From: Desulfofarcimen acetoxidans DSM 771
Lineage (GTDB): Bacteria > Bacillota > Desulfotomaculia > Desulfotomaculales > Desulfofarciminaceae
Assembly: GCF_000024205.1 (NCBI RefSeq)
Contig: NC_013216.1
Coordinates: 992,001-1,056,000, forward strand
DNA: 64,000 bases
Reading direction: 5' to 3'
This document shows, piece after piece, positions 34,405 through 62,831 of this stretch. Within the stretch, counting starts at the first letter, position 1. Each line of letters starts with the position of its first letter. The notes below the pieces were generated by a model, which did no database searches, had not been told where the DNA came from, and worked only from the letters and a program-made list of their open reading frames with translations. The position numbers were made by a program, and so were the translations under genes.

Positions 34405-35338
34405 ACTGTTTATCTCCTGTGATTATTTGTCTTCCGCTGATTTCGGAATAAGGTTTAACCTTAAAACCCGCATCTGTAAGCCATTCTTTGTATTGTTCAA
34501 AAGTCCAGGTGCCTCCGTTTTCAGTATTTACCAGCATGTTTACTGCAAATAGCGCGGCGTGGACATTTGTACCGCGAATCATATCTATTATAGCAATTCT
34601 TCCCTCTGCCGACAGTGCTTTAGCGGATCGTTGAAAGAGCCGCCGGTTTTCTTTTTCACCATATATGTGGCATACATTGCCCAGATAAATTAAATCGAAG
34701 GGACCGTCAGGCAATCCTTCATTAAAGTCTCCTTTAAGCATAGTAATCGGTTCACCCGGCAAAAGATCCGGCTGCATCATATCTATAACTGCAGGTAGAT
34801 CGAGAATAGTAACGGAAGCTCCGCGTTTTACAAATTCCCTCGCGTAAGTTAAAGGTCCGCCTCCTATATCAAGTATTTTAGATTTCCGTGGCAGTCCTTC
34901 TAAACAATAAGCGGTTACGTTGGGGGCGCTTTTTTGAGCGATATGACTCATGGCCCTGATGAAATTTTTAGGCGGTCCCTGTTTTTTTTCTTTGGGGTAA
35001 GGTTTTCCGCTGATTATCGTGTCCGGCAATCCCAACCAGGGAGTAAACAAGTCATAAGTATGCATAAAAGCAAAACCGTTATAGTCCGGGCTTTCGGGGT
35101 TGTAAAACATAGAGTTGGCCTGATTGCTGATTTTTAAAACATTATCTGTTTGTTTAAGGTAACCTAATTCCAAAAGTGATTCTGTTACAACCCAGACAGC
35201 CCTTGGATCAGCTTTTAATTTTTGTGCCAACTGTTCCGGGGTTAATGCTTCTTTGTGCAGGGCTTGAAAAATGCCCGTTTTAACTGCTGCTCCAACAATC
35301 AAGAATTCTCTGGGGAATTCAAAATTATTGATATTCAT
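34403..35338 (-). CDS. SAM-dependent methyltransferase with N-terminal winged helix (O-methyltransferase type)
   Basis: 311 residues, AAGGAG before ATG. An N-terminal winged-helix dimerisation domain ('GIFQALHKEALTPEQLAQKL') is followed by a Rossmann domain with motif I 'ILDIGGGPLTYAREF' and acidic 'VTILDLPAVIDMM'. The layout is that of plant-type/antibiotic O-methyltransferases. The substrate is unknown; no biosynthetic genes adjoin it. A related role in quinone, porphyrin or small-molecule methylation is possible. Confidence 0.85.
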   Translation of the reverse strand: MNINNFEFPREFLIVGAAVKTGIFQALHKEALTPEQLAQKLKADPRAVWVVTESLLELGYLKQTDNVLKISNQANSMFYNPESPDYNGFAFMHTYDLFTPWLGLPDTIISGKPYPKEKKQGPPKNFIRAMSHIAQKSAPNVTAYCLEGLPRKSKILDIGGGPLTYAREFVKRGASVTILDLPAVIDMMQPDLLPGEPITMLKGDFNEGLPDGPFDLIYLGNVCHIYGEKENRRLFQRSAKALSAEGRIAIIDMIRGTNVHAALFAVNMLVNTENGGTWTFEQYKEWLTDAGFKVKPYSEISGRQIITGDKQ

Positions 35339-46352: not shown

Positions 46353-46457
46353 GATACATAGTTGTATCAAATGATATTAGGGCTTTAAGTTTTTGTAGGA
46401 ATTATGAGGCAACGATGCCCCTACAACTTTCACTTAGTTGAGGGGCGTTTTATTTTC
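46353..46457 (+). promoter_or_regulatory. Leader element A (ANTAR-type dual hexaloop plus terminator), glnB
   Basis: First hairpin GATAC-ATAGTT-GTATC (46353-46368). Second hairpin GGC-AACGAT-GCC (46408-46419). Both loops have A at 1 and G at 4. The terminator GCCCCTACAACT/AGTTGAGGGGC (46417-46446) with TTTTATTTT re-uses the 3' arm of the second hairpin. The linker of about 39 bases is longer than in the other elements. Confidence 0.6.
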
Positions 46458-46836: not shown

Positions 46837-46898
46837 ACACAAGGCTGTGATTTGAGCAACTGTACTCTGTGGAGAGATTTTTAAAAAACTGAATACAT

Positions 46899-46968
46899 AG
46901 ACAAAGATGTTTACTGAGCAAAGACGCTCTGAGGATAAGTGATTTCTCCCCAGGGTGTTTTTATTTTT
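46899..46968 (+). promoter_or_regulatory. Leader element B (ANTAR-type dual hexaloop plus terminator), amt1
   Basis: First hairpin AGAC-AAAGAT-GTTT (46899-46912), three-base linker, second hairpin GAGC-AAAGAC-GCTC (46916-46929). Both loops fit A1/G4. The terminator ACGCTCTGAGGA with TCCCCAGGGTGT, then TTTTTATTTTT, starts inside the second hairpin. It is the clearest of the set. Confidence 0.75.
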
Positions 46969-48345: not shown

Positions 48346-48420
48346 GAATACAAAGTAGTATTCACCAGCGAGGGCGCTTGTTTAAGAGAGAATAGTCTCT
48401 TGAACAAAGCGCCTTTTTTT
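48346..48420 (+). promoter_or_regulatory. Leader element C (dual hexaloop plus terminator), amt2
   Basis: First hairpin GAATAC-AAAGTA-GTATTC (48346-48363), six perfect pairs. Second AGC-GAGGGC-GCT (48367-48378), loop position 1 is G. The terminator GGCGCTTGTTTAAGAGA with TCTCTTGAACAAAGCGCC and seven T begins in the second hairpin. Confidence 0.65.
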
Positions 48421-50311: not shown

Positions 50312-50325
50312 TCCCAGAGCTTGTT

Positions 50326-50410
50326 TTACAATGATGTAATCTTAAGGGCTGAGACGCCCTGCAGTTAGGGGTTGGTAAGAAACTCGACTGCGGGGCGTCT
50401 CTTTTATATT
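50326..50410 (+). promoter_or_regulatory. Leader element D (dual hexaloop plus terminator), ArAE gene
   Basis: First hairpin TTAC-AATGAT-GTAA (50326-50339), second AGGGC-TGAGAC-GCCCT (50345-50360, five pairs; loop position 1 is T, position 4 G). Terminator arms of 15 bases at 50351-50365 and 50387-50401 (one wobble), then TTTTATATT. The 5' arm overlaps the second hairpin. Confidence 0.65.
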
Positions 50411-50501: not shown

Positions 50502-51608
50502 GTGTTTCCGGCATTTATTGGCGCCAGGATTTTAAAGACTGGATTGGCGGTAGCTATTGCTACTTTTATTAGCATTCAGCTTCGGGTGGAACCGGTTTTA
50601 TTTGCGGCAGTTTCAGCAGTATTAAACATGCAGCCCTCTGTTTACATGTCGCTGAAGAATGCCAGGGAGCAGTTGTATATTCATCTATCGGGAGTTGCCG
50701 TAGCTTTGCTTTTGGGTTCTACTGCGGGCCAGAACCCCTTAACTCTTGGCTTGGCTACAATTATAGAAATATTTTTGTGTGTCAAGTTGAAGTTAAAGGG
50801 CAGCGTGGCTATGGGGGTGGTGACAGCAATCTTTATTTTAAATTCACCGGCTGACCAGTTTATGTCACATGCTTTGGGCCGCACTTCGGTTGTTTTAATC
50901 GGTCTTGCAGTGGCTCTTTCGGTTAATGCTTTGATTGTGCCGCCTAAATACAGAGATAAGTTTTTGGCTAAAATTGAAGAGTTAAATGAGTTGGTTATAG
51001 TTGTTTTCAATGAGGCAATGGACGGTTTTATACGACTGGATCAGGAAAAGTTTGTTAACTGGAAAGAGAAAAAAACTGTAATAAGCTCTCTGATTTTGGA
51101 TTGCCAGGAACTACTGGAGCGCTGCCGGGAGCAGGCTGAGTATAAGAATATAATGTATGGCGGGGAAATGAAAAATGAGGCAGAGTTTTTTGAGCAATAT
51201 TTAAAACTAAATATCGAACTTTATTATAAAACAAACAGTATTTACGAATTAATTCCCCAGCGTTTACAGAGAAGAGAACAAAAGGGCAACAGAGAGATAA
51301 GCAGTGAATTTTATTTAATCTTAGATAAGCTGGAGACCGGACGCAGATCGGTAGAGAGATTAAACAGAGAACTTCTGCAGGCAGTTTTTTCCCAAAGAGA
51401 AAAGATGCAGAATATAGTCGATGACGGGTTTTGGGATCAAATGAGTAAGACTGTGGCTGATTGGTATCTGAAATTTTCAGGAAGTTACTATTTATATGCT
51501 TTTATGGAGGTTTCAGTAGTTGCCCAGGAGCTTAGGTGGGCAGCCGTGGAAATGCAAAGGCTTTTACATTTGAGAAAAGAGATTGATATTGTGAATAGTC
51601 AGATGTGA
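50502..51608 (+). CDS. Aromatic acid exporter (ArAE/DUF939-type) membrane protein
   Basis: 368 residues from GTG 50502, after AAGGGGTGA; a GTG nine bases earlier lies inside that site. An N-terminal membrane domain of about six segments ('FPAFIGARILKTGLAVAIAT' start, 'AVSAVLNMQPSVYMSLKNAR') is followed by a 190-residue charged helical domain. The family exports aromatic acids or is of unknown function (YqjA/DUF939). A nitrogen-type leader element precedes it, so a role in ammonium or amino-compound export during nitrogen change is possible (inference). Confidence 0.78.
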   Translation: MFPAFIGARILKTGLAVAIATFISIQLRVEPVLFAAVSAVLNMQPSVYMSLKNAREQLYIHLSGVAVALLLGSTAGQNPLTLGLATIIEIFLCVKLKLKGSVAMGVVTAIFILNSPADQFMSHALGRTSVVLIGLAVALSVNALIVPPKYRDKFLAKIEELNELVIVVFNEAMDGFIRLDQEKFVNWKEKKTVISSLILDCQELLERCREQAEYKNIMYGGEMKNEAEFFEQYLKLNIELYYKTNSIYELIPQRLQRREQKGNREISSEFYLILDKLETGRRSVERLNRELLQAVFSQREKMQNIVDDGFWDQMSKTVADWYLKFSGSYYLYAFMEVSVVAQELRWAAVEMQRLLHLRKEIDIVNSQM

Positions 51609-51667
51609 GGATTGCTTTTAATAAAAAATACTCAGTATCAGGGTACGTGAAAAAGTTTAAAAAGTTG

Positions 51668-51696
51668 TTGACATGGAATGCCTTATTTGATAATAT
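51668..51696 (+). promoter_or_regulatory. SigA promoter before leader element E
   Basis: TTGACA, 17 bases, TAATAT. The first hexaloop stem starts five bases after the -10 box, so the hairpin would stand at the 5' end of the transcript. Confidence 0.75.
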
Positions 51697-51700
51697 AATA

Positions 51701-51780
51701 TTAATACAAAGTTGTATTAACAAGGGCAAAGGTTGCCTCACCACTACAGTGATTGTAGATGGGTGGGGTTTTTGTGTTTT
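51701..51780 (+). promoter_or_regulatory. Leader element E (dual hairpin plus terminator)
   Basis: First hairpin TTAATAC-AAAGTT-GTATTAA (51701-51720), seven perfect pairs, loop A1/G4. Second hairpin GGGC/GCCT (51724-51738) has a seven-base loop AAAGGTT. Terminator CCTCACCACTACA with TGTAGATGGGTGGGG, then TTTTTG. No gene follows before element F. Confidence 0.6.
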
Positions 51781-51794
51781 AAATAAATATTGTG

Positions 51795-51866
51795 ACACCA
51801 AAATGTGTTGCACGTAGCGAAGGCGCTTATTAAGAGTACTTTAAACTCTTGGCAAGCGCTTTTATT
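51795..51866 (+). promoter_or_regulatory. Leader element F (dual hairpin plus terminator)
   Basis: First hairpin ACAC-CAAAAT-GTGT (51795-51808; loop departs from A1/G4), second AGC-GAAGGC-GCT (51816-51827; G1, G4). Terminator GCGCTT/AAGCGC with inner AAGAGT/ACTCTT, then TTTTATTG. The weakest fit of the set. Confidence 0.5.
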
Positions 51867-51945
51867 GTTTTAAATCTAAGCATTTTACGGATATAATGTC
51901 GGTATACGGTTTTCTTTATTGTAAGCTTGGAGGGTTTAATATAAT

Positions 51946-51975
51946 TTGGAGGTGAATATTATATTAAGATAAATA
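51946..51975 (+). promoter_or_regulatory. Possible SigA promoter before leader element G
   Basis: TTGGAG, 18 bases, TAAATA, immediately before the first hairpin of element G. Confidence 0.4.
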
Positions 51976-52060
51976 TTTACAATGAAGTAAAACCCGGGGC
52001 AACGGTGCCCTACGTTTAAGGTTTTTAAATAAATCTTAAACGTAGGGCACCTCATATTTT
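51976..52060 (+). promoter_or_regulatory. Leader element G (ANTAR-type dual hexaloop plus long stem), nifV
   Basis: First hairpin TTTAC-AATGAA-GTAAA (51976-51991), second GGGC-AACGGT-GCCC (51997-52010); both loops A1/G4. A 16-base perfect inverted repeat (52005-52020 with 52035-52050) overlaps the second hairpin. The T-run after it is interrupted (CTCATATTTT). Confidence 0.7.
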
Positions 52061-52140
52061 AAGATATGTGTTTCCCGGTCTTAAGTTAGTAACTGTTGAA
52101 CTTAGTTGTAGTAATGATTGTTATTTGAGGGGGTGTGCAT

Positions 52141-53004
52141 TTGGCAAAAGTTTGTATTGTTGATACTACTCTGCGCGATGGTGAGCAGTCACCGGGTGTT
52201 GCCTTCAGTGCCAAAGAAAAAATAAAAATTGCTCAGTATCTTGATTTACTTGGAGTAGAGCAAATTGAGTTAGGCATACCGGCGATGGGCGGTATTGAAG
52301 TTGATGCCATAAGTTCTATTGCAAGCTTGGATCTAAAGGCCAGGTTAACCACTTGGAACAGATTGCACTTGTCGGATATAAGAGCTTCCTTAAGCTGCAG
52401 AGTGAAAAATCTACACATTTGTGCTCCTGTATCAGATATCCAAATAGAATACAAGTTGAACAAAAGTCGATTGTGGGTGCTTGATTGTCTGAAAAGAGCA
52501 ATTCGCTATGCTAAAGATTATGGCTGTTGGATATCTGTAGGAGCTGAAGATGCTTCCCGGGCCGATCCTGAGTTCTTGCTGGAATATGCGCTGCTGGCTC
52601 AGGAGATGGGTGCTGAAAGGTTGCGTTATGCAGATACTGTTGGAGTATTGGAGCCATTTTCAACTTATAGGGAACTTAGTTGGTTGAAGGATAAATTAAA
52701 GATAGAGTTGGAATTTCACGGGCATAATGATTTTGGTTTGGCCACGGCCAATACAGTTGCTGCTGTCAATGCAGGAGTAAGGTTTATTGATGTTACGGTT
52801 AACGGACTTGGTGAGCGAGCCGGTAATGCTAATATGGAAGAAGTGGTGGCAGCCATTAGGATGTCCTGCGGCATAGGTATGAATTGGGCTAATGATAAAA
52901 TGAAAGCCTTGTCATCATATGTTGCCCGTGCCTCCAATCGAAAGATGCCAAAAACTTTTCATGATTTCAGAAAATCCGGTATTACGCTATATAAATATGT
53001 GTAA
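52141..53004 (+). CDS. nifV: Homocitrate synthase NifV (short form)
   Basis: 287 residues from TTG 52141, seven bases after GAGGGGG. It carries the barrel signatures of the isopropylmalate/homocitrate synthase family: 'KVCIVDTTLRDGEQSPG' and 'LEFHGHNDFGLATANTVAAV'. It condenses acetyl-CoA and 2-oxoglutarate into homocitrate for the FeMo cofactor. It lacks the approximately 90-residue C-terminal region of typical NifV (about 375 residues) and recalls the split NifV-alpha/omega of clostridia. No second subunit gene is in the window. Element G precedes it, and element H separates it from nifH. Confidence 0.85.
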   Translation: MAKVCIVDTTLRDGEQSPGVAFSAKEKIKIAQYLDLLGVEQIELGIPAMGGIEVDAISSIASLDLKARLTTWNRLHLSDIRASLSCRVKNLHICAPVSDIQIEYKLNKSRLWVLDCLKRAIRYAKDYGCWISVGAEDASRADPEFLLEYALLAQEMGAERLRYADTVGVLEPFSTYRELSWLKDKLKIELEFHGHNDFGLATANTVAAVNAGVRFIDVTVNGLGERAGNANMEEVVAAIRMSCGIGMNWANDKMKALSSYVARASNRKMPKTFHDFRKSGITLYKYV

Positions 53005-53017
53005 TAATTAAAAAAGA

Positions 53018-53940
<923 letters not shown>

Positions 53941-62192: not shown

Positions 62193-62831
62193 ATGTCAAA
62201 AAATATAGCCGTGTGTTTGGGCGAAGACGGGAATACAGCCACTCTGTTTGATAAAGGAAAGCTGGTTGTCTATACAAAAAGTGCGGGCAAATGGGAATCC
62301 GTCAGGGAGATGGAGCATCATATAGACAGAAGCTTGGGTATGGTTCAATTGCGCCTTAGGATGAAAGAGATTTTGAATTTTTTAAACGGCTGCCAGGTTT
62401 TTGCGGGTCTTTCAGTAACGGGTGTGCCCTATTTCGAGTTAGAGAAGCAAAAAATCAGTATCTGGGAATTTTCCGAAAAGCCTGCCGAATTTTTGGACTA
62501 TATATTAGAGAAGGAAGAAGAGGCGGAAATAGAAAATGCAGCGACACAGAAGAAAGATAACATTATTCAAATGACACCGGTAGAGATTGCAGCCGGTTGC
62601 TACAGAATTTCTATTAAGGAGATTCAGGAGAAAAATACGGGGATAACATCAAAACAAGTGCTATTGCCATTTTTACGAAAGAGCGCTTTTTATTCCCTGG
62701 AGATTATCTGCAACCATATCCCGCCCTGGTTGGAAGCAGAAATGATTGTTGGCAAATTAGAAGGGAATATTGCCAGGACAGGGGAAAATGAGCATACAGT
62801 TGTTTTGAGTAAAAAGTGTTGTCCGGTATGA
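62193..62831 (+). CDS. AnfO-family nitrogenase accessory protein
   Basis: 212 residues, GGGAGG before ATG. N-terminal 'NIAVCLGEDGNTATLFDKGK' and the conserved stretch 'VFAGLSVTGVPYFELEKQKI', followed by 'SIWEFSEKPAEFLDYIL', match the AnfO family described with Fe-only nitrogenase. Here the cluster is a Mo-type one (nifE, nifN and nifV present, no anfDGK seen), so the protein may have a wider role in cofactor delivery. Ends 'VVLSKKCCPV' with paired Cys. Last gene of the nif transcript. Confidence 0.8.
   Translation: MSKNIAVCLGEDGNTATLFDKGKLVVYTKSAGKWESVREMEHHIDRSLGMVQLRLRMKEILNFLNGCQVFAGLSVTGVPYFELEKQKISIWEFSEKPAEFLDYILEKEEEAEIENAATQKKDNIIQMTPVEIAAGCYRISIKEIQEKNTGITSKQVLLPFLRKSAFYSLEIICNHIPPWLEAEMIVGKLEGNIARTGENEHTVVLSKKCCPV

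Follow-up and report, generated by a model that had tools for sequence, protein, structure and literature searches.

A row of putative ANTAR-dependent attenuators in the nifV-nifH leader of Desulfofarcimen acetoxidans DSM 771

Described ANTAR leaders and the nif locus

In the EutV model of antitermination, as set out in two reports (PMC3369931; PMC8934654), an ANTAR dimer binds one hairpin of the leader RNA (P1) and then a second (P2), and P2 excludes the terminator. According to the text of the first report, mutation of A1 or G4 in either loop of the EutV/eutP system, or an altered linker, lowered antitermination (PMC3369931). The same text, by Ramesh et al. (2012), counts, for the organism studied here, no fewer than 13 ANTAR RNAs spread over six transcription units of nitrogen metabolism; two of the elements described below, E and G, are very probably among the RNAs listed, and the text contains no discussion of rows in one leader, of a degenerate member or of promoters (PMC3369931). 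The eut locus of E. faecalis likewise has four ANTAR-controlled terminators, the number of candidates found here, but those precede different genes (as our element H does), whereas E, F, and G all lie in a single gap. The arrangement further resembles the tandem riboswitches (TPP, glycine, c-di-GMP-I), in which complete switch-plus-terminator units stand before one gene and give a steeper response (PMC9481103); for such serial homologous riboswitches, pseudo-cooperativity is established (PMC9481103). Tandem riboswitches bind a small molecule, however, whereas the effector here would be a putative protein that favours read-through, and the elements are unequal in strength.

The genome of Desulfofarcimen (Desulfotomaculum) acetoxidans DSM 771 comprises 4,545,624 bp in one contig, and the organism is the sole member of its genus in our genome set. 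The genome paper mentions a nitrogenase cluster and states that nitrogen fixation in D. acetoxidans was not tested (PMC3035247). We analysed a window of 64,000 nucleotides around this cluster, in which the genes are ordered PII, amt, amt, PII, an ArAE_1 membrane-protein gene, a nifV-like gene, nifH (53113 to 53940), two PII genes (nifI-like), nifD, nifK, nifE, a nifN-like gene, and nifB; the nif features given below with coordinates all lie on the + strand. The nifV-like homocitrate synthase gene (52135 to 53004, 289 amino acids) scores below the NCBIfam nifV cut-off and is shorter than the model. Downstream of the Mo-nitrogenase cluster, at 62193 to 62831, lies a gene for an AnfO-like protein, its match falling just under the family cut-off; despite this gene, no iron-only nitrogenase genes were found in the 64-kb window. 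The gene upstream of nifV ends at 51608, leaving a gap of 526 nt, and the statement of the initial annotation that no credible gene separates E, F, and G holds, there being no + strand open reading frame of at least 80 amino acids within 51609 to 52134.

ANTAR elements in the nif leader

At the gathering threshold, Rfam finds no family, and hence no riboswitch, in the 64-kb window, and an E-value search of 51500 to 52200 gave chance matches only. Because the ANTAR elements had no Rfam match, two covariance models were built to score them, R1 trained on nine elements (seven from the D. acetoxidans genome) and R2 trained on 60 elements from other genomes alone, gathered using R1. The stems of the R2 alignment covary; 91.4% of cells are paired across the 60 relatives' elements, and the covariation score of 0.324 exceeds that of shuffles (0.137) and of slid versions (no higher than 0.130). 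G4 is present in all 60 P1 and all 60 P2 loops, a constancy that is somewhat overstated since the gathering model favours G4. An extra base pair between positions 1 and 6 of the P2 loop was too weakly indicated to be retained (37/60 paired versus 32.5 in shuffled alignments, with 86 of 5000 shuffles as high).

In the window, R2 assigns 34.1 bits to E, 31.5 to B, 29.5 to G, 29.3 to C, 27.9 to D, 27.1 to H, and 23.2 to A, and no E-value among these is above 4e-4; F follows at 12.0 bits (E = 0.3 per window), and the next-ranked matches reach 9.4 bits at most. Scored by a model that holds no sequence from their own genome, E and G are confirmed, at the level of sequence, as genuine ANTAR dual-hexaloop antiterminators. 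The initial annotation had seen three tandem elements before nifV, of which E and G stand, but F is degenerate, and element H, between nifV and nifH, had been overlooked; with this fourth element, nifHDK lies behind one more candidate attenuator than nifV. A strict descriptor (A1 and G4 in both loops, terminator with a good U-tract) missed E, F, and G, each for a different reason, and was loosened stepwise after this failure, each version being tested against shuffles. Under a composite rule (six-base P1 loop, G at position 4 of the P2 loop, overlapping terminator), the gap from 51609 to 52134 holds three P1/P2/terminator composites, a number reached in none of 1500 dinucleotide shuffles of the gap under the normal U-tract rule and in one once that rule was relaxed; none of the 1500 contained two composites having a canonical P1 loop.

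Like the EutV/eutP, NasR/nasF, and AmiR/amiE leaders, E, G, and H have two small hexaloop hairpins, a P2 that overlaps the terminator, and a short linker; A1 and G4 are complete in G, while E shows them in P2 by register and H has G1 in P1. The characterised ANTAR leaders have one element per intergenic region, whereas here several complete elements lie in one leader; they also differ in that P2 loops often begin with G (25 of the 60 relatives' elements) and that the P1 of F lacks A1 and G4. The independent model finds two adjacent small hairpins with six-base loops in E, G, and H; F has both and scores low. Element E (51703 to 51738) has a canonical P1, aatacAAAGUUguauu, with A1 and G4, and a P2, ggcAAAGGUUgcc, whose loop reads as 7 nt (AAAGGUU) and carries A1 and G4 by register. 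The 5' arm of its terminator (51735 to 51773, tail UUUUUGUGUUUU), which is graded fair, overlaps the 3' strand of P2. Both hairpins of element G (51976 to 52011; P1 uuuacAAUGAAguaaa, P2 gggcAACGGUgccc) carry A1 and G4. Its 21-bp stem (52004 to 52062, –34 kcal/mol) is the most stable in the row, yet it is followed by a broken U-tract, UCAUAUUUUA, with a negative terminator score, and G may terminate little. Thus, E, F, and G do carry the terminator-like stems initially ascribed to them, but termination is doubtful at G, whereas E, F, and H have U-rich tails behind the P2 overlap. Element H (53018 to 53055), which is in neither training set, scores 25.8 bits with R1 and 27.1 with R2; its P1, uugacGAUGUUguuaa, has G1 and G4, its P2, aagcAAAGGCgcuu, has A1 and G4, and its terminator (53046 to 53090, tail UUUUUUU) has the top terminator score among the nif elements.

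Element F (51792 to 51828; R2 12.0 bits, R1 18.7 bits) forms a strong P1 hairpin in which the AC/GU closing pairs are retained, but the loop, CAAAAU, is devoid of the recognition bases A1 and G4; no alternative P1 with G at position 4 was found on reading 51775 to 51830. Its P2, agcGAAGGCgcu, has G1 and G4 and is a variant shared with element C and many relatives, and a terminator-like stem of 10 + 8 bp follows (51819 to 51872, tail UUUUAUUGUUUU). Since its P1 has lost the recognition bases, F probably responds only in part or acts as a leaky stop; in eutP, a change of either P1 loop base lowered induction (PMC3369931), so the F stop may respond poorly. A poorly answering F would put a ceiling on nif expression, or else nif would be transcribed from a promoter downstream of F. 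It is somewhat unlikely that F is instead a plain terminator, or a stop with an insulating role, in which the likeness of the 5' arm to P2 is fortuitous, only E, G, and H being regulated, a reading that concerns F alone and fits either promoter model considered below. The 12 bits from the independent model and the CAAAAU loop, set against G4 in 60/60 of the relatives' P1 loops, agree with a plain stop, but the P2 of F is a recurrent variant, as noted above, and overlaps the terminator canonically, F starts 91 nt after E, which is the usual spacing in relatives (median 90), and the rows of relatives likewise include P2-plus-terminator units that have no canonical P1 (L081, L109).

Element rows and promoters in relatives

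Few relatives have nifV directly before nifH, and nifH was therefore chosen for comparison; R2 matches and terminators were recorded upstream of nifH in the best 30 nifH loci of the order. Within 800 bases upstream of nifH, 24 of the 29 relatives' leaders contain two or three P2(G4)-plus-terminator units, with three elements, one sometimes with a weak U-tract, in L081, L084, L087, L089, L091, L092, L096, L103, and L107. An overlapping terminator under the normal rule accompanies 42 of the 51 relatives' elements tabulated. Successive elements of the relatives start 63 to 154 bases apart (median 90), compared with 91 from E to F and 182 from F to G. From the first element to the last, the model score falls (medians 34 versus 17 bits in 21 rows, paired p = 0.003, the species not being independent). 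The departure from the usual single-leader arrangement remarked on in the initial annotation is real when measured against textbook ANTAR leaders, but within the clade a leader with two or three elements upstream of nifH is the norm. Of 299 sampled genomes of the phylum, 38 contain the ANTAR motif, and no same-strand pairs less than 400 bases apart occur among the matches listed, the search being one that misses weak members.

The middle element of the three-element rows has a strong stem and a broken U-tract like that of G in L084, L087, L089, L091, L092, and L103; such middle elements are perhaps pause sites or factor-dependent terminators. Three loci with the nifV-nifH order (L018, L017, and L013) have a single ANTAR element upstream of nifV, followed by two or three in the nifV-nifH interval, and the distribution in D. 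acetoxidans is the reverse, three before nifV and one between nifV and nifH.

The row in D. acetoxidans is headed by a promoter-like site, TTGACA-N17-TAATAT (51668 to 51696, 10/12), with a predicted start at about 51703. It is the best match before E and ends 6 nt before the P1 of E, in keeping with the earlier proposal that it places the first hexaloop at the very start of the transcript; an equally good match arose in 43 of 1000 shuffles of this stretch, and the site alone is not decisive. In the relatives, 20 of the 22 first elements, as against 1 of the 19 later ones, have a sigma-A-type promoter scoring 9/12 or more in the 40 bases upstream; the first-element promoters are mostly TTGNNN-N17-TATAAT and end 12 to 22 bases before P1. 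This pattern, the strongest evidence on the point, favours transcription of such rows from a single head promoter, with the elements acting as serial attenuators.

A second promoter-like site, TTTAAA-N17-TATAAT (51869 to 51897, 10/12), lies between F and G and could bypass E and F. We consider it unlikely, but not negligibly so, that this site serves G and nifV, with E and F making up a short transcription unit upstream that ends at the F terminator and has no input into nif. The site equals the one before E in score, the F-to-G spacing of 182 nt is the longest seen, and F appears unresponsive, so that the E promoter may be a dead end; however, an equally good promoter turned up in 79 of 1000 shuffled versions of the F-G gap (the site is not significant), only one of the 19 later elements in relatives has a promoter of its own, and the site is 78 nt upstream of the P1 of G, compared with 12 to 22 nt for most first elements of relatives. 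A different candidate for G, TTGGAG-N17-ATAAAT at 51946, had been named initially; it is ruled out, as the RNA would start inside the P1 of G, and the site at 51869 to 51897 is the better match.

Proposed mechanism and its significance

Two REC-ANTAR proteins are encoded in the D. acetoxidans genome, each adjoining a copy of glnA and both outside the nif locus. That of L001 (1483 to 2067, minus strand) has Glu at the position of the expected phospho-acceptor Asp (VIMEP), which suggests that it is not controlled by phosphorylation; its paralogue in L002 keeps the Asp (VIMDS-type, IIMDS). Across the order, 99 of 113 genomes encode ANTAR proteins. Within the window, element A (46353 to 46420) stands before a PII gene and has a canonical P1, auacAUAGUUguau; a hexaloop hairpin, ggcAACGAUgcc, follows about 40 nt downstream, far over the usual linker, and is partly within a longer stem. 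Elements B, C, and D (46898 to 46929, 48347 to 48379, and 50325 to 50359) precede the ammonium-transporter genes and the ArAE_1 membrane-protein gene. With A to D and the nif elements in one stretch, the entire PII-amt-nif stretch would constitute an ANTAR regulon. Elsewhere in the genome, a second serial ANTAR pair lies at 34408 and about 34598 (L042, 1501 to 1533 and 1691 to 1724) before an ammonium-transporter-like gene. The search of the organism's own genome gave 13 matches at E < 0.03, plus F and the second element after 34408, a set similar to the total of at least 13 ANTAR RNAs given in the text of Ramesh et al. (PMC3369931).

We propose, with reasonable confidence, that ANTAR-dependent attenuators stand in a row in the nifV-nifH leader. 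In this scheme, transcription would begin at about 51703, and the default fold of each unit would be an intrinsic terminator. Under nitrogen shortage, an active REC-ANTAR protein, putatively either of the two, would bind the hexaloop of P1 and next that of P2; the bound P2 would hide the 5' arm of the terminator and let RNA polymerase pass. A nifV mRNA would arise when polymerase passes E, F, and G, and a nifHDK mRNA when it passes H too. The chances of read-through would multiply along the row, which would give very low leak and a steep response; in an illustrative calculation, a read-through of 0.1 in the off state and 0.8 in the on state yields an 8-fold change with one unit and a 512-fold change with three. 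The "strongly cooperative" nif expression suggested initially is right in so far as serial decisions multiply, but the behaviour would be pseudo-cooperative, as occupancy of one element need not assist binding at the following one (PMC9481103). Three features count against an attenuator row: if P1 is essential, F would be a permanent stop for transcripts from the E promoter; there is a promoter-like site between F and G; and the G terminator has a poor U-tract.

A further reading is a relay, in which the first element of Desulfotomaculales nif leaders would load an ANTAR dimer and hand it over to later elements whose P1 is weak or missing, such as F, the row acting as one unit instead of a set of independent switches. 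The fall in score along the 21 rows is compatible with such a handover, which we nevertheless hold to be quite improbable. A decoy role for E and F, as an RNA that titrates ANTAR protein in the manner of EutX/Rli55, is very improbable. The two ANTAR-like sites in a gene-free stretch with a strong terminator at its end would suit it, but the EutV site of EutX/Rli55 has no terminator and sits behind a cobalamin riboswitch (PMC5821096), whereas each unit here has its own terminator-like stem, Rfam gives no riboswitch in the window, and the equivalent rows of relatives are directly before nifH.

As elements, E and G are probably not new; what is new is the clade-wide serial nif row and the degenerate F. 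No description of serial nif rows in one leader, their recurrence in the order, the promoter pattern, or a degenerate member was found in the open-access literature, in which Ramesh et al. is represented by its text without figures and tables. The claim is moderate, the parts being known and the organism's regulon having been listed in 2012.

The members of the row, being unequal, are natural variants for separating the contributions of P1 and P2, which are of interest since the EutV-RNA structure suggested successive binding of the two loops. For the costly nitrogenase, repeated protein-controlled terminators on one transcript would replace or supplement control at the promoter. Serial rows of this kind probably make switching-on steeper and leak-proof; if serial ANTAR units do multiply, a sharp, low-leak switch would be made from simple parts, a protein-controlled counterpart of the tandem riboswitches.
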